From Myxococcales bacterium (GTDB lineage Bacteria > Myxococcota > Myxococcia > Myxococcales > 40CM-4-68-19), in contig JAIVGS010000191.1 of assembly GCA_020201435.1 (NCBI GenBank), positions 1 to 36,494 of the forward strand: a stretch of DNA of 36,494 nucleotides, written 5' to 3'. Under the pieces are notes generated by a model, which was not told where the DNA came from, ran no database searches, and saw only the letters and a list, made by a program, of their open reading frames with translations. Position numbers and translations under genes: made by a program. Below are positions 16,717 through 31,365 of the stretch, in pieces; within the stretch, counting starts at the first letter, position 1; the number at the start of each line of letters is the position of its first letter.

Positions 16717-19933
<3,217 letters not shown>

Positions 19934-20078: not shown

Positions 20079-21008
20079 TCATCCTACCGCGGCGGCGGCG
20101 CGATGCACCTCGGTCAGCCAGATGGCCGACAGCCGGTGCTCGCCCCGCACCACCGAGTGGTAGGCGCGCTGGAACGCTTGCGTCACCGGCCCGGTTCGTC
20201 CGCCGCCGACGGTGCGGAAGTCGACTTCGCGGAGGCCGATCACTTCGGCCGCGGTGCCGCTGACGAACACTTCATCGGCAGCGTACAGTTGGTCGCGCGA
20301 GAGCGGCGCCTCCTCGATCTCGAAACCGAGCTCGGGCGCGAGGTCGATCAGCGACTGGCGCGTGAGACCGTTGAGGATGTTCACGTCCGGCGGCGTTCGC
20401 ACTCTGCCATTCTTGACGACGAAGATATTTTCGCCGGTGCACTCCGCGACCATGCCCTGCGCGTCGAGCATGATCGCCTCGTCGAAGCCGAGCCGCAGCG
20501 ACTCGGTCTTCGCCAACACCGAATTCGCGTAGTTGCCGCTCACCTTCGCCTTGGTCATCGTCACGTTCGGCTGGTGGCGCGTGTACGACGAGACGTTGGC
20601 GCGCACGCCGAGCGCGGCCGCTTCCGGGCCGAGGTACTGCTTCCATTCCCAGACCGCGATGCCGACGTGCGGCTTGCCGCCGTCGACGGTGAGGTTCCAT
20701 CCGCCCTCGGCGAGATAGACGAGAGGACGGATGTAGCACTCCTCGAACGGGCTCGCGGCCACGGTGTCGATGCACGCCTGACAGAGCTGCTGCTCCGTCC
20801 ACGGCAAGTCGCGGAAGCCGAGGATCCGCGCGGACTCGCACAGCCGCGCGACGTGATCCTGCAGCCGGAAGATGGCCGGTCCGCGCGTGGTGCGGTAGCA
20901 GCGGATGCCCTCGAAGACCGCGATGCCGTAGTGCAGCGCCGGCGTGAGGAAATCGAGCTTCGCCTCCGCCGGCGCGACGAGCTTGCCGTTGAACCACATC
21001 CGCGTCAT
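20079..21008 (-). CDS. ilvE: Branched-chain amino-acid aminotransferase
   Basis: Moves an amino group between glutamate and the 2-oxo acids of valine, leucine and isoleucine, the last step of their synthesis, using pyridoxal phosphate. Fold type IV features are present: the MWFNGKLV start, [13 protein letters not shown] near residue 30, the conserved [14 protein letters not shown] block and [14 protein letters not shown]. Length (309 aa) is normal. The ATG at 21008 is chosen because GGAGG precedes it and it overlaps the ilvC stop as ATGA; the frame upstream is ilvC shadow. It is the ninth and last gene of the ilv-leu operon. Confidence 0.96.
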
Positions 21009-22051
21009 GCAGCCTCCTTCTTCGCAACCGGAGCAGGCGCCTCGCTGGAGTCCTTCTGCTTGTTGCGGATCCAGCTCATCGTCTCGCGCAGCCGGCGGCC
21101 GACTTCCTCGATCGGATGCTCGCGACCCTGCTCGCGCAGCTTGTCGAAGACCGGCCGGCCGGCCTGGTTCTCGAGGATCCACTCGCGGGCGAACTGGCCG
21201 GTCTGGATCTCTTTGAGGATTTTCTTCATCTCCGCCCGCGCCGCGTCGCCGACGATCCGCTCGCCGCGCGAGTAGTCGCCGTACTCGGCGGTGTCGCTGA
21301 TCGAGTGGCGCATCCAGGAGAGGCCGCCCTCGTACATCAGGTCGACGATCAGCTTGAGCTCGTGCAGGCACTCGAAGTACGCGCTCTCCGGCTGGTAGCC
21401 GGCGTCGACGAGCGTGTCGAATCCGGCGGTGACGAGCGCGCTGATGCCGCCGCAGAGGACGGTCTGTTCGCCGAAGAGATCGGTCTCGGTCTCCTCGCGG
21501 AACGTGGTCTGCAGCACGCCGGCCCGCGTGGCGCCGAGAGCGCGCGCGTACGAGAGCCCGGTCGCGTGCGCGGTCCCGGTCGCGTCCTGTTGGACCGCGA
21601 TCAGCGCCGGCGTCCCCTGCCCTTCGACGTAGAGGCGGCGCACGAGATGGCCCGGCGCTTTCGGCGCGATCAACACCACGTCGACGTCGGGCGGCGGCTT
21701 GATCTGGCCGTAATGGATGTTGAAGCCGTGCGCGAAATAGAGCGCCTTGCCCCTGGTCAGCGCGGGCGCGATCTCGCTCTCGTAGATCTTCTTCTGCTGC
21801 TCGTCCGGCGCGAGCACCATGATCAGGTCGGCTTCGCGCGCGGCTTCCGCGACGCCGAGGACGCGCAGGCCCGCGCGCTGCGCCTTGTCCCTGGACTTGC
21901 TCGCCGCGTGCAGGCCGACGCGGACGTCGACGCCCGAATCCCGCAGGTTGAGGGCGTGCGCATGCCCCTGGCTGCCGTAGCCGACGACCGCCACCTTGCG
22001 GCCGCGGACGAGGTCGAGATTCGCATCCTTGTCGTAATAGAGAACGGCCAT
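21005..22051 (-). CDS. ilvC: Ketol-acid reductoisomerase (class I)
   Basis: Converts acetolactate or acetohydroxybutyrate into the dihydroxy acid with NADPH and Mg2+. The Rossmann motif [17 protein letters not shown] lies near residues 24-40, with KAPGHLVRR and the metal-binding knotted C-terminal half downstream. At 348 residues it is slightly longer than the usual class I enzyme because of a charged Ala/Pro/Lys-rich tail ([16 protein letters not shown]) with no known role. The ATG at 22051 has an AGGAG site and is 2 bases after the ilvD stop. The 3' end overlaps ilvE by 4 bases. Confidence 0.96.
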
Positions 22052-22053
22052 GG

Positions 22054-23733
22054 TCACTGCTCCTTTGTGTTCGGCGAAGTGATCGCGCCCTCTTCCGCCG
22101 ACGAGACGAGGGCTGCGTATTTGGCGAAGACGCCGGTGCGATAGCGCGGTGGAGGTGGCTTGAAGTCCCGCATGCGCTGTTGCAACTCCTGCGCGGTGAT
22201 CTCGACGTCGACCTTGCGCGCGTCGACGTCGATGCTGATGATGTCGCCGTCTCGCACGGCGGCGATCGGCCCGCCGCGTGCGGCTTCCGGCGATACGTGG
22301 CCGAGCATCAGGCCGCGGGTGCCGCCGCTGAAACGGCCGTCGGTGACGAGGGCGACGGATTCGCCGAGGCCCTGGCCGACGAGCGCGGCGGTGACGCCGA
22401 GCATCTCGCGCATGCCGGGACCGCCGCGCGGCCCTTCGTAGCGGATGACGACGACGTCGCCGGCCTCGATCCGGCGATCCCGGACCGCCGCGAACGCGTC
22501 TTCCTCGCGATCGAAGACGCGCGCCGGGCCGCGATGCTTCGGTCGCTCGTGCCCGGCCATCTTGACGACCGCGCCGCCGGGCGCGAGCGAGCCGCGCAGG
22601 ATGCACAGGCCGCCGGTCGCCTTGAACGGATTCGCGGCAGAGCGCACCACCGGTTGATTCGGCGTCTCCCGCGCCTGGTGCGTGCGCCACGCGGTTCCGT
22701 CGGCGGTGAGCGCATTCCCGTCGAACTTCTTCGCCTCGATCAGCCGCTGCGCGACGAGCGGAACGCCGCCCGCCCGGTGGAGATCGACGGCGGTGAACTC
22801 GCCGCCCGGCTTGAGCGACGCGATCAGCGGCGTCCGCGCGCTCACCCGATCGAAATCCTCGAGGGTGAGCGGCACGTCGGCTTCGCGCGCGATCGCCAGC
22901 AGGTGCAGCACGGCGTTGGTCGAGCCGCCGGTGGCGGCGACGCCGGCGATCGCGTTTTCGAACGAGGCGCGCTCGACGATGCCGCGCGGGCGCACGTCTT
23001 TTTGCAGCAGCTGCACGACCAGCTTCCCCATCTCGCGCGTGGCGTCGTCCTTGCGCGGATCGGTGGCGGGAATGCTGCCGTACCCGACCGGGCCGAGCCC
23101 GAGCAGCTCGACCGCCATCGCCATGGTGTTGGCGGTGAACTGCCCACCGCAGGCGCCCTCGCCCGGACAGGCGGCGTCCTCGATCGCTTTCAGGGTCTGC
23201 AGCGGAATCTTTCCCGCGGTATGCGCGCCGACGGCCTCGAAGACGTCGACGATGGTCACGTCGCGTCCTTCGAATCGACCGGGCGCGATCGATCCGCCGT
23301 AGAGCACGAGCGCGGGCAGATCGAGCCGCAGCACCGCCATCGCCGCGGCGGGGATCGTCTTGTCGCAACCCACCAGGCAAACCACGGCGTCGAAGAGATG
23401 CCCGCGGCAGACGAGCTCGATCGAGTCCGCGATCACCTCGCGGCTGACGAGCGAGGCCTTCATCCCCTCGGTGCCCATCGTCACGCCGTCGCTGATCGCG
23501 ATGGTGTCGAACTCCATCGGCGTCGCGCCCGCGGCGCGGATGCCCTCCTTCACCTTTTCCGCGAGACGCCGGAGGTGGAAATTGCACGGCATCGTCTCGG
23601 TCCAGGTGTTGGCGACGCCGACGATCGGCTTCGCCAGGTCCTCGTCGCTGAAGCCGATGCCCTTCAGCATCGCGCGCGCGGGGGCGCGATCGGGGCCTTC
23701 GGTGATCACACGGCTCTTGTGGCGCGGATCCAT
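22054..23733 (-). CDS. ilvD: Dihydroxy-acid dehydratase
   Basis: Dehydrates the dihydroxy acids to 2-oxo acids with an iron-sulfur cluster. The expected cysteines are visible: C50 (TETMPCNFH), C123 (VGCDKTIP) and C195 (GEGACGGQF). Other family blocks are [14 protein letters not shown] (79-91) and [21 protein letters not shown] near residue 470. At 559 residues the length is normal. The ATG follows the leuB stop with no gap (TAGATG), and GGGAGG at the leuB end serves as its ribosome site. Confidence 0.96.
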
Positions 23734-24747
23734 CTAGAGACCTCCCACGACTGCGTCGCCGACTTCGCGGCAGCTCGCTGTTCCGCCGAGATCGCGCGTC
23801 AGCACGCCGCGCTCGACCGCTGCCGAGACGGCGCCTTCGATCGCGTCGGCTTCGGCGTGCATGCGCAGCGAGAGGCGCAGCATCATCGCCGCGGAGAGGA
23901 TGGTGCCGAGCGGGTTGGCGATGCCCTTGCCGGCGATGTCGGGAGCGGAGCCGTGGATCGGCTCGTACAGGCCGCGCGCGCCGTCGCCGAGCGACGCGCT
24001 CGGGAGCATGCCGATCGATCCGGCGATCATCGCGGCCTCGTCGCTGAGGATGTCGCCGAACATGTTTTCCGTGACGATGACGTCGAAGGCGCGCGGATCG
24101 CGGATCAGCTGCATCGCGCACGAATCGACGAGCTGGTGCGTCAAGAGCACGTCCGGGAATTCCTCGTCCACGACTTTTTCCGCGACCCGGCGCCAGAGGC
24201 GCGACGTCTCCAGGACGTTCGCCTTGTCGACCGAGCAGAGGCGCTTGCGCCGTCTCTGCGCCAGCGCGGCGCCGATCCGGACCAGGCGCGCGACTTCATG
24301 CTCGGTGTAGGCGCAGGTATCGAAGGCGGAGTCGGCGGTGCTCGCCTTGTTGCCGAAATAGATCCCGCCGGTCAGCTCGCGGACGATGATCAGATCGACG
24401 CCTTCGACGACCTCGGGGCGCAAGGTCGACGCGTGGGCCAGCCGACGATGCGCGGCGACCGGGCGCAGATTCGCATAGACGCCGAGCTCCTTGCGCAGCG
24501 TGAGCAGCCCCGCTTCGGGCCGGGGCGGCTTGTCCCAATTGGGACCGCCCACCGCACCGAGAAGGATCGCGTCGGCCTCTTTGCAGAGCGCGAGCGTCTG
24601 GTCGGGCAACGGGGCGCCGGTCGCGTCGATGGCGCAGCCGCCGAACTTCGCCTCGCGCAGGTCGGTGATCCCGACCGCGTCGAGGACGCGCACCGCCTCG
24701 GCGATCACCTCCGGCCCGATGCCGTCGCCCGGCAGCACCGCGATCAT
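23734..24747 (-). CDS. leuB: 3-Isopropylmalate dehydrogenase
   Basis: Oxidatively decarboxylates 3-isopropylmalate to the precursor of leucine using NAD+. It begins [14 protein letters not shown], the family start. Substrate and metal residues are in [25 protein letters not shown] and [16 protein letters not shown], and the cofactor loop in [17 protein letters not shown]. At 337 residues it is slightly short but complete. The ATG at 24747 overlaps the leuD stop by 4 bases; sequence upstream in this frame is leuD shadow. Confidence 0.96.
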
Positions 24748-25247
24748 CGCTTCGCCTCGAACGCGGCGATCTCTTCTTCCGCCGCGAGCAGGTAACCGAG
24801 CTCGTCGATCTCGTGGATCAGGCAGTGGCGGGCGAACGGATCGAGCGTGAACGCGTAGCTGCGGCCTTCGCACTCGACAGTGCAGGATTCGAGATCGATC
24901 GCGATCTCGGTCCCCGGCGCGAACGTCGCGGCGATCTGCACCGGCACGAGGCCGTTCTTCACCGCGTTGCTGCGGAAGATGTCCGCGATCGACGGGCTGA
25001 TCACCGCGCGAAAGCCCGCGTCGAGCAGCGCCCACGGCGCGTGCTCCCGCGACGAGCCACAGCCGAAGTTCTCGCCGGCGACGAGGATCGTGCCGGCCTG
25101 GCCCTGCAGGAGCTCCGGCCGGTCGGCGAACAAGGCCGCTCCGAGCCCTTTCCGCACGGTCGTGCGGAGAAAACGCGCCGGGATGATCTGGTCGGTGTCG
25201 ATGTTCGGCCGCGGAACGACGACCGCCTTTCCGACGATGCGTTTCAT
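24744..25247 (-). CDS. leuD: 3-Isopropylmalate dehydratase small subunit
   Basis: Swivel-domain subunit that pairs with LeuC to isomerise 2-isopropylmalate to 3-isopropylmalate. Typical features are [13 protein letters not shown] (about 15-27), [17 protein letters not shown] (about 58-74) and the conserved [10 protein letters not shown]. At 167 residues it is the short form common outside Enterobacteria. The ATG at 25247 overlaps the leuC stop (ATGA), so both subunits are made from coupled reading frames, which helps equal amounts. Confidence 0.96.
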
Positions 25248-26551
25248 CGCAGCACCTCGCGGGGATCGGCGATGGCGCCTTTCAGCGCCGCGGCGGCGGC
25301 GGTGAGCGGGCTGGCGAGGAACGTGCGGCCGCCCCGACCCTGCCGCCCCTCGAAGTTGCGGTTGCTGGTGCTGACGGCTGCCTGGCCGGGCGTCAGCGAG
25401 TCGCCGTTCATCGCGATGCACATCGAGCATCCCGGCTCGCGCCATTCCGCGCCTGCTTCGCGGAAGACCCTGTCGAGCCCTTCTTGTTCGGCCGCATGCT
25501 TGACCTGCTGCGAGCCCGGCACGATCAGCGTGCGCACGCCCTCTGCGATCCTGCGCCCGCGCAGGACCGAGGCAGCCGCCCGCAGATCGGAAAGACGGCC
25601 GTTGGTGCAGCTTCCGACGAAGACGACGTCGATCTTCGTGCCGAGGAGCGGCGCCCCGCGCTTGACCCCCATGTACTGCAGCGGCTTTTCCGGCGCGTCG
25701 TCCGGGACGCGCGCGTCGACCGGGATCGCGGTGCCGGGGTCGGTCCCCCAGGTGATCATCGGCGCGAGCCGCGACACGTCGAGCGCGGCTTCCTTGTCGA
25801 ACCGCGCGCCCGGGTCGGTCCCCCACTCCGCGCTGCCGATCATTCCCGCCCGCGCACCCGCTTCGATCGACATGTTGCACACCGTCATCCGCTCTTCGAT
25901 CGACATTCCACGAACCGTGCTGCCTGCGTACTCGATCACGTGCCCGGCGCCGCCGCCGACGCCGAGCCTGGCGATCACCGCCAGGATCACGTCTTTCGCG
26001 GACACGCCGGCCGGCAGCGCCCCGTCGATCGAGATCAGCATCGCCTTCGGCTTGCGCTGCAGCAGGCACTGGGTCGCGAGCACGTGCGCGACCTCGCTGG
26101 TGCCGATGCCGAACGCGAGGGCGCCGAACGCGCCGTGCGTCGAAGTGTGGCTGTCGCCGCAGACGACGGTCATCCCCGCCTTCGTCAGCCCGAGCTCAGG
26201 GCCGATGACGTGGACGATGCCCTGCTTCTCGGAACCGAGCGCGTGCAGCTCGATGCCGTAGTCCCCGCAGTTGCGCGCGAGCGTATCCACCTGCGCCTCG
26301 GCGTCGCCATGCGCGAACGGAAATCGACCGTTCACCCGCGGCAACGTCGGAGTCGAGTGGTCCATCGTCGCGACCGTGCGATCGGGCCGCCTTACCCGGA
26401 GACCGCGCTCGCGCAGGACCGTGAACGCCTGCGGCGAGGTCACCTCGTGCACGAGGTGCAGATCGACGTAGAGGATCGCGGGCGCTTCCTCCGTCTCCGG
26501 GCGCACCAGGTGCGCGTCCCAGATCTTGTCGAAGAGCGTCCTAGACGGCAC
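25244..26551 (-). CDS. leuC: 3-Isopropylmalate dehydratase large subunit
   Basis: Aconitase-family subunit carrying the [4Fe-4S] cluster. The cluster cysteines are visible in [13 protein letters not shown] and [12 protein letters not shown], and the substrate segment [15 protein letters not shown] is present. At 435 residues it is shorter than the about 466 of the E. coli enzyme, within the range of the family. It starts with GTG at 26551, 11 bases before the leuA stop, so the two genes overlap. The tail [20 protein letters not shown] is the normal aconitase C-terminal block. Confidence 0.96.
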
Positions 26552-28109
26552 CGCAAGCCACCTCTTCGTCGTGCACCGGCCGCACCGCGCGCGGCCGGCC
26601 CGCCGAGATCCGGTTCACCACCTCGAGGAACGCTCGCGCGCTGCCGACGATGATGTCGGTCGAGACGCCGCGGCCGCCGTACCTGCGCCCATCGTGCTCG
26701 ACCTCGATCAGGACCTCGCCCTGCGCGTCTTCGCCCGGCGTCATGCTGACGATGCGGAAGTCGCGCAGCTGCGCGCGCACCCCGGTGATCCGCTCGATGC
26801 TCTTGAAGACCGCGTCGACCGGGCCGTCGCCGACGGCCGCGTCCTCGACGCGCCGGCCGTCCTTCATCTCCAGACAGACCGCGGCGCTCGGCGCGGCGTT
26901 GGTGCCCGAGACGGCGTGGATGCTGACCAGCTTCCAGCGCCCGCCGTTGGTCCCGAAGGTGGTCGTCTCGACCAGCGCGTCGAGGTCGCCGTCGTAGATC
27001 TCCTTCTTGCGATCGGCGAGGTCCTTGAAGGCGGCGAACACCTTGTCCAGCTCGGAGGCGTCGAGGCGGTAGCCGAGCTTTTCCAGCCGCTCGCCGAGCG
27101 CCGCGCGGCCGCTGTGCTTGCCGAGGACCAGGTCGGTCGAGCGCACGCCGACGTCCTGCGGCTTCATGATCTCGTAGGTGAGGACGTTCTTCAGCATCCC
27201 GTGCTGGTGGATGCCCGACTCGTGCGCGAACGCGTTCTGGCCGACCACCGCCTTGTTGCGCGGCACGAGGAACCCGGTGGCGAGCGAGACCGCGCGGCTG
27301 GCGCTGCAGATCTGTTCGGTGTTCACGCGGGTGTGCACGCGGAGGAAATCCGCCCGCGTCCGGATCGCCATCACCACTTCCTCGAGCGAGCAGTTGCCGG
27401 CGCGCTCGCCGATGCCGTTGACGGTGCACTCGATCTGCCGCGCGCCCTCCTGGACCGCGGCGAGGCTGTTCGCCGTCGCCAGCCCGAGGTCGTCGTGGCA
27501 GTGAACCGACACCACCGCTCTCGAGCCCACGGTCTTCCTGACCATCGCGATCAGCGCCGCGAACTGGGCGGGCATCGCGTACCCGACGGTGTCCGGGATG
27601 TTGACCGTCGTCGCGCCGGCTTCGACGACACGCGCGACGACCTCGGCGAGAAATTCCGGCTCGGTCCGCGCCGCGTCTTCGGGAGAGAACTCGACGTCGG
27701 GGCACTGCTCGCGCGCGTACTTCACCGCCGCGACCGCGTTCTGCACCACCTGCTCGCGCGTCATCCGCAGCTTGAACTCGCGGTGGATCGGGCTGGTGGC
27801 GAGGAAGACGTGGATGCGCGGCTTCTCGGCTTCGCGCAGCGCGTCCCACGCCCTCGAGATGTCCTCGCGCTGCGCCCGCGCGAGGCCGCAGATCGAGACC
27901 CCTCGCACCTGCCGCGCGACGGCGCGGACGGATTCGAAATCGCCCGGCGACGCGGCGGGAAAGCCCGCCTCGATCACGTCGACGTTCAACGCCTGGAGCG
28001 CGGCGGCCACCTTGAGCTTCTGCGGCAGGGTCATGCTCGCGCCCGGCGCCTGCTCGCCGTCGCGCAGCGTGGTGTCGAAGATCACGACTCGGTCGGTTGA
28101 TTCGCTCAC
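26541..28109 (-). CDS. leuA: 2-Isopropylmalate synthase
   Basis: Condenses acetyl-CoA with 2-oxoisovalerate, the first step specific to leucine. The catalytic barrel begins with [17 protein letters not shown] and includes the metal-binding [16 protein letters not shown] and the [14 protein letters not shown] block. The C-terminal 130 residues form the LeuA regulatory domain that binds leucine in this family, so feedback inhibition is likely. The GTG at 28109 is chosen because it overlaps the ilvN stop as GTGA and puts the barrel start at residue 11; the frame upstream is Arg-rich shadow. At 522 residues the length is normal. Confidence 0.96.
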
Positions 28110-28612
28110 GTTTGCACCTCGGGGGAAATGGGTCCGCGCGCGATGGCCACCGCGCCGGTTCGAACGAGCTCGACGATGCCGAACGGCTTCAGCGCTTCGA
28201 TGAGCCCGTCGATCTTGTCCTGCGATCCGGTGCTCTCGACGGTGATGCTCGCCGGCCCGAGGTCGACGACGCGGGCGCGGAAGACGTCGCACATCTGCAT
28301 CACTTCGCCGCGGAACTGCGCGCCGAGCTTGACGAACGCCATCTCGCGGACCACGACCGGCTCGGCGGTGACGTCACGCACCTCGATCACGTCGACGAGC
28401 TTGTAGAGATTCGCTTCCAGCAGGCGCGCGGCGTTGGCGTCGGCGCGGACCACCAGGGTGATCCTCGAGACGCCCGATCTTTCGGTGCGGCCGACGGTGA
28501 GCGAGTCGATGTTGACCACGCGCCGGCGAAAGAGCGAGACGACGCGGTTCAGCGCGCCGGGGAGATCCTCGACCAGCACGATGAAGGTGTGCGACGTCCG
28601 TTCAGGAGTCAT
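28106..28612 (-). CDS. ilvN: Acetolactate synthase regulatory subunit
   Basis: Small subunit that activates the catalytic subunit and makes it sensitive to valine. The N-terminal ACT domain is clear (HTFIVLVEDLPGALNRVVSL), followed by NIDSLTVGRTE and a second ACT-like half. At 168 residues it has the typical IlvH length. It begins at the ATG at 28612, overlapping ilvB by 11 bases, and ends with a GTGA overlap on leuA. Whether it acts like IlvN or IlvH of enterics cannot be told from sequence alone. Confidence 0.94.
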   Translation of the reverse strand: MTPERTSHTFIVLVEDLPGALNRVVSLFRRRVVNIDSLTVGRTERSGVSRITLVVRADANAARLLEANLYKLVDVIEVRDVTAEPVVVREMAFVKLGAQFRGEVMQMCDVFRARVVDLGPASITVESTGSQDKIDGLIEALKPFGIVELVRTGAVAIARGPISPEVQT

Positions 28613-30362
28613 ACGGCGTCTCCTCGATCGGCGACGGGCGCCGGATCATGTCGTGCAGGTCCGCCGCGGCGGGGACCATCGGGTAGACGCTGTCCTCGGC
28701 CTCGACGCGGAAGTCGATGATCACGGTGCCCCGCTCTGCGCGGGCCTTCTCGACCGCGTTCGGAAGATCGGCCCGGCGGTCGACGCGCAGGCCGCAGAGG
28801 CCGTGCGCCTCGGCGAGCTTGACGAAGTCCGGGCTCTTCAAGGGCGTCGCGATGTACCGTCCGCCATAGAAGAACTGCTGCCACTGGCGCACCATGCCGA
28901 GGTAGCCGTTGTTGATCACCGCGACGTTGAGCTTGAGGCCCTCCTGCGCGCAGGTGGAGAGCTCGGCGGCGGTCATCTGGAAGCCGCCGTCGCCGGCGAT
29001 GACCCAGATCTCGTCGTCGGGAAACGCGAAGCGCGCGCCCATCGCCGCGGGCAGCGCGAAGCCCATCGTGCCGAGGCCGCCGCTGGTGATCAGCTTGCGC
29101 GGATGATCGTGGCGGTAGTACTGCGCCTCCCACATCTGGTGCTGGCCGACGTCGGTGACGACCAGCGCGTTGCCTTTGGTGAGGCGCCAGAGATCGTGCA
29201 TCACGTGCGCCGCGTAGAGCCGGCCGTCGTCCGGCAGCGAGACGATGTCGCGCACCGCCGCTTCGCCCTTCAAGCCGGCGATGTGCTTGCGCCACGGCCC
29301 GCGATCCCGCGGCTTCACGCGCGACAGCAGCTCTTCCAGCGTCACCGCGACGTCGCCGACGAGCGCCACGTCGACCTTGACGGTCTTGTCGATCTCCGAG
29401 GGATCGATCTCGGCGTGGATCTTCTTCGCGCCGACCGCGAACGTCTTCGTGTTGCCGGTGACGCGATCGTCGAATCGCATCCCGAGCGCCACCAACAGAT
29501 CGGACTGCTGCACCGCGAAGTTGACCCACGCTTCGCCGTGCATTCCCATCATGCCCAGCGACAGCGGGTGCGTCGCGGGAAAGCCGCCGAGGCCGAGCAG
29601 CGTCTGCGCGACGGGAATGTCGCTGCGCTCGGCGAGCTCGCGCAGCGCGCGGGTCGCGCCCGCCATCATCACGCCGTGTCCGGCGAGGATCACCGGCCGC
29701 TTCGCGCCGTCGATCAACTCCGCGGCCTTGTCGAGCATCTCCGTGCGCACGCTCCTGCGCTTCCCGTTGCGCGGGCGGTGCGGCGGCGAGAGCTGGACCG
29801 ACTCGACGGCCGCCTGCTGCGCGTCCTTGGTGATGTCGACCAGCACCGGACCGGGCCGTCCCGATCGCGCGACGTGAAACGCCTCGCGGATCGTCGCCGG
29901 GATGTCGGCGGCTTTGGTGACCAGGTAGTTGTGCTTGGTGATCGGCAGCGTGATGCCGGTGGTGTCGATCTCCTGGAACGCGTCGGTGCCCAGCCCGGGA
30001 GACGCGACCTGTCCGGTGATGCAGACCACCGGCGATGAATCGAGCATCGCCGTCGCGATGCCGGTGACGAGGTTGGTCGCGCCCGGCCCCGAGGTCGCAA
30101 CGGCGACGCCGACCTTGCCGGAAGCGCGCGCGTAACCGTCGGCCATGTGCGACGCGCCCTGCTCGTGGCGGACCAGCACGTGCCGGATCGGATACGCGGG
30201 CATCGCGTCGTACGCGGGCATGATCGCGCCGCCCGGATAACCGAAGACGACCTCGACGCCCTCGCGGACCAGCGCCTCCCACAACAGCTGCGCGCCCGTC
30301 CGGCGCGGCGACGGTGCGTCTTCCTCTGCGTGTTTCGGTTCGGTTTCCAGTTGCAGCGCCAT
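28602..30362 (-). CDS. ilvB: Acetolactate synthase catalytic subunit
   Basis: Thiamine-diphosphate enzyme making acetolactate and acetohydroxybutyrate, the first shared step to valine, leucine and isoleucine. Visible blocks are GYPGGAIMPAYDA, the catalytic Glu segment RHEQGASHMADGYARASGK, GRPGPVLVDITKD, and the thiamine motif GDGGFQMTAAELSTC running to NNGYLGMVRQWQ. At 586 residues it is normal, with a short charged N-terminal extension of about 20 residues. An AAAGGAAG ribosome site precedes the ATG. It is the first structural gene after the attenuator, with the terminator hairpin about 30 bases upstream of its start. Confidence 0.96.
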   Translation of the reverse strand: MALQLETEPKHAEEDAPSPRRTGAQLLWEALVREGVEVVFGYPGGAIMPAYDAMPAYPIRHVLVRHEQGASHMADGYARASGKVGVAVATSGPGATNLVTGIATAMLDSSPVVCITGQVASPGLGTDAFQEIDTTGITLPITKHNYLVTKAADIPATIREAFHVARSGRPGPVLVDITKDAQQAAVESVQLSPPHRPRNGKRRSVRTEMLDKAAELIDGAKRPVILAGHGVMMAGATRALRELAERSDIPVAQTLLGLGGFPATHPLSLGMMGMHGEAWVNFAVQQSDLLVALGMRFDDRVTGNTKTFAVGAKKIHAEIDPSEIDKTVKVDVALVGDVAVTLEELLSRVKPRDRGPWRKHIAGLKGEAAVRDIVSLPDDGRLYAAHVMHDLWRLTKGNALVVTDVGQHQMWEAQYYRHDHPRKLITSGGLGTMGFALPAAMGARFAFPDDEIWVIAGDGGFQMTAAELSTCAQEGLKLNVAVINNGYLGMVRQWQQFFYGGRYIATPLKSPDFVKLAEAHGLCGLRVDRRADLPNAVEKARAERGTVIIDFRVEAEDSVYPMVPAAADLHDMIRRPSPIEETPYDS

Positions 30363-30382: not shown

Positions 30383-30421
30383 AAAAACGAGAAGCCCCCG
30401 GACCCTTTCGGGTGCGGGGGC
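30383..30421 (-). terminator. Attenuator terminator hairpin in front of ilvB
   Basis: Read on the minus strand, GCCCCCGcACCC, loop GAAA, then GGGTcCGGGGGC forms an 11-pair stem with one mismatch (arms 30421-30410 and 30405-30394). A tail TTCTCGTTTTT runs to 30383. The GAAA loop is of the stable GNRA type. The U-run starts six bases after the stem, so it is a less than perfect intrinsic terminator. It lies between the leader-peptide stop and ilvB, as expected for an attenuator. Confidence 0.85.
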
Positions 30422-30471
30422 CTGGTTCCTTCCGGAGTCCTGCTTCCAGTTAGAACGGCGGCCCGCACCCG
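30409..30471 (-). promoter_or_regulatory. Antiterminator pairing of the ilv attenuator
   Basis: On the minus strand, CGGGTGCGGG (30471-30462), inside the last codons of the leader peptide, is a perfect 10-base complement of CCCGCACCCG (30418-30409), which forms most of the terminator's first arm. If the first segment is free, the two pair and the terminator cannot form. The first segment ends 9 bases before the leader stop codon, so a ribosome that reaches the stop covers it, while one stalled at the Leu/Ile/Val codons leaves it free. Pairing is seen directly; the mechanism follows enteric attenuators. Confidence 0.8.
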
Positions 30472-30578
30472 TCGCGAAGGACGACGAGAATGAGGCCGAT
30501 AAGGGAAATCGAGACGAGGCCGGCGGCGCTGGAGGAGTCGTTGCAGAACGTCGCGGGGCGCTGCGTCATCGCCCGCAT
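30450..30578 (-). CDS. ilv operon leader peptide (42 aa)
   Basis: A short gene whose translation senses charged Leu, Ile and Val tRNAs. From the ATG at 30578 it runs 42 codons to TAA at 30450-30452. AAGAGGG (30592-30586) sits 7 bases before the ATG, a good ribosome site; a second in-frame ATG lies at 30569. The codons at 30518-30477 read LVSISLIGLILVVL, 11 of 14 being Leu, Ile or Val. The peptide then ends RDGCGPPF, with its last codons forming one strand of the antiterminator. It starts 25 bases after lgt, so the operon may be read from lgt or from a promoter at the lgt end (TTGACA overlaps the lgt stop, but no good -10 is seen). Too short for ordinary gene finders. Confidence 0.88.
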   Translation of the reverse strand: MRAMTQRPATFCNDSSSAAGLVSISLIGLILVVLRDGCGPPF

Positions 30579-30603
30579 CCGTACGCCCTCTTCGCGGGCG
30601 TTG

Positions 30604-31365
30604 TCAAATCTTGTCCTCAAGTGGCTGATCTTTCAGGCGAGCGAGGAGCACGAATCCGACAAAAGTGGCGGCGATCGACGCATACTGGCCCGGAGTCCAG
30701 CCGACGTAGCGCTCGTCGCCGACGCGCAGCATGTCGAGGGCGAAGCGCACCGGGCCGTAGAGCAGAAGGAACACGGCGACGAAGAATCCGGTCGGACGCG
30801 GCTTGCGATCGAGCGCGACGAACGCGGCGCAGATGACGATCGTCCAGAACAGCTCCAAAAGACCGAGGTCGTAGCGCGGGCCGTCCGGAAAGCGCACCGC
30901 GAGGAAACTGCCGGTCGCGATGCCGACGTGATCGTGGGCGAGCGCGCAGCCGGTGCGGCCGAAGATCCACGCGAACGGAAACGCGAAGGCACAGATGTCG
31001 AAGAACGAGAGCGCCTGCTTCCACGAGAGCCGCTTCAGGCGCAGCGCCACGATCCCGCCGAGGACGCCGCCGATCAGGCCGCCGTACGACGACATCGTGC
31101 CCCACAGCTCGAGCAGCACCAGCGGATTGCGGCGCAGCGCTTCCCGCTCGTAGAGCAAGGTGTCGAAGACGTGCGATCCGACGAAGCCGAGAAACACCGC
31201 CCACAGCACGAGGCTCAGGACGAGGTCGCGATCCCATCCGAGCCGCGTCGCGCGGCGCACCGTGATCTCGTACCCCGCGACGACGGCGGCGAAGACGAGG
31301 ACCTGGAACGCGGAGAGCGAAAAGCCGCCGATCCGCAGGACCGGCTCCGGAACGTACGGGAACAC
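30604..31365 (-). CDS. lgt: Prolipoprotein diacylglyceryl transferase-like protein (divergent Lgt)
   Basis: An inner-membrane enzyme of the Lgt family, which adds diacylglycerol to the lipobox Cys of prolipoproteins. About seven hydrophobic helices are visible over 253 residues. Family landmarks are GTMSSYGGLIGG (89-100), FGRTGC (135-140) and TPGQYASI (224-231). Two positions differ from E. coli Lgt as I recall it: the His in SFHGG is Tyr94 here, and the GRIGNFxNGE block reads GRTGCALAHDHVG, with the Arg kept. It may be a lineage variant with full activity or a paralogue with another role. It starts with GTG at 31365, 9 bases after the secreted SH3 gene. Confidence 0.82.
   Translation of the reverse strand: MFPYVPEPVLRIGGFSLSAFQVLVFAAVVAGYEITVRRATRLGWDRDLVLSLVLWAVFLGFVGSHVFDTLLYEREALRRNPLVLLELWGTMSSYGGLIGGVLGGIVALRLKRLSWKQALSFFDICAFAFPFAWIFGRTGCALAHDHVGIATGSFLAVRFPDGPRYDLGLLELFWTIVICAAFVALDRKPRPTGFFVAVFLLLYGPVRFALDMLRVGDERYVGWTPGQYASIAATFVGFVLLARLKDQPLEDKI

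Follow-up and report, generated by a model that had tools for sequence, protein, structure and literature searches.

Genes for the synthesis of leucine, isoleucine and valine form a nine-gene ilv-leu operon on a contig from a Myxococcales bacterium (GenBank JAIVGS010000191.1, assembly GCA_020201435.1), and the short region preceding its first gene, ilvB, raises the question of how the whole operon is controlled. The window analysed here is the complete stretch of 36,494 nucleotides. An earlier note on this DNA had proposed an attenuator responding to these three amino acids and relying on one alternative pairing. This proposal is strengthened by the conservation of the control codons and of the complementary segments among relatives, with compensatory changes in distant ones. 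On such comparative grounds, the region is most probably (about 0.9) a minimal, probably leaderless, ribosome-mediated transcription attenuator sensing charged Leu, Ile and Val tRNA, and the operon would most likely be switched on only when these amino acids are short.

Parts of the leader region

The candidate attenuator spans positions 30569 to 30383 of the minus strand, 5' of the operon (Table 1). All nine downstream genes belong to ilv/leu biosynthesis, which confirms the operon as first described. The leader ORF does contain a run in which 11 of 14 codons specify Leu, Ile or Val. Among the 63,345 open 14-codon stretches in the six frames of the window, just one other place reaches 11 of 14, at position 17254 within a 1074-aa ORF, and it is presumably a membrane segment. 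The leader segment reported as complementary to a terminator arm was found again as an exact 10-bp match between segment 2 and segment 3, the 5' arm of the terminator. The terminator hairpin, rightly placed before ilvB, is followed by a U-rich tail ending near 30383 and is kept in relatives; in the window, the run of U residues is not continuous (CTTCTCGTTTTT). The antiterminator strand extension is based on the window fold together with covariation in relatives, and the small spacer hairpin, seen in the window and in many relatives, is weak when taken alone (mean z -0.9). The gene lying upstream of the region (30604-31365, minus strand) is prolipoprotein diacylglyceryl transferase-like, with 78 bits for a lgt cut-off of 119.

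Table 1. Features of the candidate attenuator and of its operon, in the order of predicted transcription (window coordinates).
Feature	Sequence	Position	Strand	Remarks
Predicted -35 box	TTGACA	30602..30607	-	overlaps the end (stop codon) of the lgt-like gene upstream; TTGAC[A/G] similarly placed in most relatives
Predicted -10 box	TACGGA	30578..30583	-	spacer of 18; overlapped by ATG 30578
Leader ORF	MTQRPATFCNDSSSAAGLVSISLIGLILVVLRDGCGPPF	30450..30569	-	probable start ATG 30569; 39 codons and TAA
Control run	LVSISLIGLILVVL	30477..30518	-	CTT at 30479-30477 is the last control codon, ninth before the stop
Segment 2, antiterminator strand	CGGGTGCGGG	30462..30471	-	within the last leader codons
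Antiterminator strand extension		30452..30459	-	second Pro and Phe codons; partner, the bases 5' of segment 3
Small spacer hairpin	CUGGA...UCCGG	30432..30449	-	3' of the leader stop codon
Segment 3	CCCGCACCCG	30409..30418	-	common to antiterminator and terminator
Terminator hairpin (segments 3 and 4)		30392..30423	-	-25.6 kcal/mol
U-rich tail	CTCGTTTTT	30383..30391	-	predicted 3' end of the short transcript
ilvB-ilvN-leuA-leuC-leuD-leuB-ilvD-ilvC-ilvE operon		20079..30362	-	nine genes

Distribution in Myxococcota and predicted promoter

Homologues of IlvB were taken from named genomes as well as from the same family, order and phylum, and the DNA upstream of them was scanned. Leaders sharing the end [GR]-x-Gly-Pro-Pro were found 5' of ilvB in the relatives of the window and in Sorangium, and such leaders also precede operons with other first genes; the bodies of the peptides are very different and the Leu/Ile/Val run is kept. 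A covariance model built from 25 sequences gave one good match in the window's own genome (E 7e-16) and was searched in 195 genomes of its phylum, 318 from the class that includes Sorangium, and 17 named genomes. From this search 77 Myxococcota loci were kept. A leader ORF was called at 76, its start codon being uncertain at some of them, and the next gene is a branched-chain amino acid (BCAA) gene in 75 of the 76: ilvB (41), ilvD (25), ilvC or a divergent reductoisomerase-like gene (5), leuA (3) and cimA (1). For the one exception (L225), close to the end of its contig, no gene could be recognised. Weak matches of the model (L164-L167 and L171-L173, E 1e-3 to 1e-2) were excluded, as they come without BCAA genes and without a Leu/Ile/Val leader, or with an unrelated ORF only. 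No Rfam family, T-box and riboswitch families included, attained its gathering score in the window or among 15 loci related to it, and only sub-threshold matches were obtained.

The copy preceding cimA (L187, TIGR00977) carries the attenuator word in frame 2, as defined below, and is the second one of its genome, which has another before ilvB (L182). At L180, L219 and L192, the attenuator and ilvB are separated by a predicted short gene, divergent and ketol-acid reductoisomerase-like; that of L180 encodes 255 aa and falls under the family cut-offs. A variant leader (MKDAHDVSLLGGAVVVVSLIISLLLVIQA and stop), missed by the model, lies 317-416 nt upstream of the ilvB match at L049 and L050, with its arm-complementary strand (GCGGGGACCAG) just 3' of the stop codon and not within the ORF. 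In Acidobacteriota (L074, L077, L094, L109), short Leu/Ile/Val-rich ORFs are found about 90-240 nt upstream of ilvB, without the Myxococcota word; they possibly represent another type of attenuator.

This distribution bears on a more trivial explanation, in which the hairpin is the mere terminator of the lgt-like gene and the Leu/Ile/Val-rich ORF a product of chance, a small membrane peptide or a lipoprotein. The hairpin of the window indeed sits between the lgt-like gene and ilvB, the leader ORF is hydrophobic, and a Gly-Cys end is present in many relatives. The module nevertheless follows the BCAA genes and not lgt, being also located 5' of genes led by ilvD, ilvC, leuA and cimA, and a protein function would predict neither the rare-codon bias nor the compensatory pairing described below. 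Several clades have Ala, Ser, Gly or Val in place of the leader Cys, and the lipoprotein reading of the ...GC end was rejected because this residue is not conserved. Taken as a whole, this explanation is considered extremely improbable, and the attenuator is preferred.

Comparison of the same loci led to a revision of the leader start. The ORF of 42 codons initially described does run from ATG 30578 to 30450 (minus strand, read from 30800 to 30200); its start codon was not confirmed, since the conserved promoter favours ATG 30569. A pattern composed of TTGAC[A/G], 16-19 nt, a -10-like hexamer, 4-13 nt and an in-frame start was found at 55 of the 76 loci, against a mean of 5 and a maximum of 10 in shuffled sequences, and TTGAC[A/G] occupies the same place 5' of most related leaders. 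In the window, the -10 hexamer, a weak match, is separated by 8 nt from ATG 30569; at the sister locus L145, an identical TACGGA is found 9 nt from the ATG. The promoter was not called by a generic sigma-70 scan, and the comparison among relatives was needed. Given its conservation at 55 of 76 loci, this promoter predicts a transcript 5' end that coincides with ATG 30569 or is a few bases away. The promoter geometry points to a transcript that is leaderless or nearly so, with a leader ORF of probably 39 codons, and on which a ribosome would be able to load while the 5' end emerges. The motif CGCCCGC (30600-30594) was rejected as a candidate segment 1, as it lies within the promoter spacer and would stay untranscribed.

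The same attenuator might instead be translated by a Shine-Dalgarno mechanism from ATG 30578, on a transcript starting further upstream. A GAGGG motif is present 9 nt 5' of this codon, and a good ribosome site had been proposed there. If the predicted promoter holds, this motif would be part of the promoter spacer, and the -10 box would be overlapped by ATG 30578 itself; moreover, no comparable ribosome site recurs before the leaders of relatives, whereas the promoter-plus-start pattern does. Translation from ATG 30578 is regarded as quite unlikely, and the start at ATG 30569 is retained.

RNA pairing, control codons and folding

In the window, the duplex formed by the leader end and its own terminator arm has an energy of -28.3 kcal/mol, against -18.5 kcal/mol after synonymous recoding (P=0.013). 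Across the leaders, the mean value for the last 12 leader codons and their own arm is -24.4 kcal/mol, to be compared with -17.3 for synonymous recoding, -18.1 for codon permutation and -21.8 kcal/mol for the arms of other loci. At position -6 of the pairing word, T-A and G-C alternate by lineage, with a paired fraction of 0.86 versus 0.58 expected. The pairing extends outside the word: the bases immediately 5' of segment 3 are matched by the second Pro codon and its 3' neighbour, in an outer helix illustrated by CCTGT:ACAGG (L145), CCAGG:CCTGG (L180), CCGAT:ATCGG (L186) and CCGTTC:GAACGG (L175). When partners were shuffled within rough clades, a control that is not equivalent to a full phylogenetic correction, the signal at -6 remained (P=0.003) and the outer helix displayed 117 pairs against 94.7, a number reached by 0 of 5000 shuffles. 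Frame 0 is used for the word in 41 leaders (GGG TGC GGG CCN CCN, giving Gly-Cys-Gly-Pro-Pro) and frame 2 in 23 others (GGT GCG GCG GCC, giving Gly-Ala-Ala-Ala). Since one word is read in two frames, it is the RNA rather than the peptide that is conserved, and this comparison indicates that the pairing word is under selection as RNA.

The Pro-Pro-Phe end of the leader had been proposed as possibly delaying release and strengthening termination. It is now largely explained by the pairing of the second Pro and of the next codon 5' of the terminator arm. The Gly-Pro-Pro end could still act, besides pairing, as a ribosome-pausing peptide over segment 2 that strengthens termination: it is kept in most frame-0 leaders although both Pro codons (P1 and P2) vary at their third base, and the geometry suggests that segment 2 would be covered by a ribosome pausing at this end. 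Against this, the third bases of P2 co-vary with the arm (CCT:AGG, CCA:TGG, CCG:CGG) and its CC pairs with GG, so that RNA pairing accounts for Pro-Pro, which is absent from the frame-2 group (GAAA) and from others. An additional pausing function is judged unlikely, and pairing is the preferred explanation.

Control codons were compared in a non-redundant set of 61 leaders (<75% identity over 28 codons). Leu, Ile or Val is specified in 59 of them by codon 9 before the stop, almost never by codons 2-6 and in 38-50 leaders by codons 12-15, with the reservation that the covariance model was trained on 11 leader codons and the stop, which makes statements on codons 1-11, codon 9 included, partly circular. 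This circularity does not extend to the promoter, to the Leu/Ile/Val content of the leader further upstream than codon 11, to the genes downstream or to the covariation. The choice of synonymous codons is also peculiar, ATT representing 67% of the Ile codons in leaders versus 8% in downstream genes (P 2e-53), CTT and CTA 37% versus 5%, and GTA and GTT 33% versus 7%; Gly codon use is unshifted and that of Ala shifted slightly. At codon 9, with the same reservation, 37 of the 48 Leu/Ile codons are ATT or CTT (P=7e-7), and the window uses CTT, which accounts for 1% of the Leu codons of its own operon.

Folding the whole 238-nt region, as had been suggested, is uninformative (z -0.36), whereas truncated folds that take the ribosome into account do discriminate. 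Before segment 4 is made, the antiterminator of the window has a probability of 0.99 in naked RNA and of 0.96 when codon 9 occupies the A site; for a ribosome standing at the stop codon, it drops to 0 and the terminator reaches 1.0. The medians for the 61 leaders are respectively 0.98, 0.99, 0 and 1.0. These folds, together with the fixed codon 9, agree with the spacing argument of the earlier note, according to which a stalled ribosome frees segment 2 and a ribosome at the stop covers it. In the full-length window RNA, two states lie within 2 kcal/mol (-40.9 and -42.6), the terminator being slightly favoured at equilibrium even with a stalled ribosome. The switch must therefore be kinetic, its outcome being set by the order of synthesis. 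No protector or pause (1:2) hairpin of the classical four-segment trp type was found in truncated naked folds of the window and of the 61 leaders, and the antiterminator probabilities of this naked RNA imply that segment 2 is unsequestered. Since naked RNA favours read-through and no such hairpin was found, prompt translation is needed, which a leaderless start would supply.

Proposed mechanism and relation to known attenuators

In the mechanism proposed from these computed features (the parts and their geometry, conservation, covariation and codon bias), transcription would begin on ATG 30569 or a few bases away from it, and a ribosome would load on the emerging 5' end. When Leu, Ile or Val is scarce, this ribosome would stall in the control run, at the latest with the CTT of codon 9 in its A site; segment 2, left uncovered, would then pair with segment 3 ahead of the synthesis of segment 4, and the antiterminator would allow the operon to be read. 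When these amino acids are plentiful, the ribosome would reach the stop and cover segment 2, segments 3 and 4 would pair, and transcription in the cell would terminate near 30383.

The classical ilv, leu and trp attenuators of enteric bacteria encode a leader peptide in which the regulated amino acids occur in runs, and possess mutually exclusive antiterminator and terminator structures between which the ribosome position decides. The myxococcotal element resembles them in its Leu/Ile/Val-run leader, its exclusive structures and the proposed deciding role of the ribosome. It differs from them by the absence of a detected protector (1:2) hairpin, by an antiterminator strand placed in the last leader codons, by its predicted leaderless start and by its occurrence in a different phylum, without demonstrated sequence kinship. 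Canestrari is said (PMC13236596) to have described in 2020 mycobacterial polycysteine attenuators, which are likewise leaderless short ORFs whose codons sense an amino acid; those sense cysteine, and the myxococcotal one would sense BCAA.

Among the nearest described systems are the ilvB leaders of Actinobacteria, that of M. tuberculosis ilvB1 (PMC13236596) included, with short ORFs containing Ile, Val and Leu codons and an intrinsic terminator 5' of ilvB (PMC1262725, PMC11857589, PMC13236596). Their mode of regulation was called unclear in 2005 (PMC1262725). The ilvBNC operon of C. glutamicum has a three-hairpin attenuator modelled with an anti-antiterminator hairpin, in a 2025 paper that also discusses leaderless translation and competing hairpins (PMC11857589). 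The short ORF and the intrinsic terminator before ilvB are common to both groups. In contrast to the actinobacterial systems, two states suffice in Myxococcota, the antiterminator shows covariation, and the switch also precedes ilvD, ilvC, leuA and cimA. Control-codon bias has been discussed for E. coli leaders (PMC1183508).

The element is a new case of a known kind of attenuator with variant features, and not a new kind. It constitutes a well supported, lineage-wide and apparently undescribed member of the classical attenuation mechanism: no report of such an attenuator for Myxococcota was found in the open-access literature searched, where absence does not amount to proof. A broader proposal, for which the odds appear evenly balanced, is that of a Myxococcota-wide regulon governed by a leaderless two-state attenuator devoid of a protector hairpin, with its antiterminator strand in the last leader codons, a word whose reading frame has switched between lineages, and a last control codon fixed in position and biased towards rare codons; ribosome loading on a leaderless transcript would take the place of such a hairpin in keeping ribosome and polymerase in step.

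These results point to a BCAA-sensing regulon of Myxococcota (ilvB, ilvD, ilvC, leuA and cimA) that is absent from Rfam and from the open-access papers searched. They offer a natural comparison for attenuation that starts leaderless and dispenses with a protector hairpin. A single RNA word read in two frames makes the constraint on the RNA separable from the constraint on the peptide, and rare codons at a fixed position provide a testable case for the choice of codons in attenuators.
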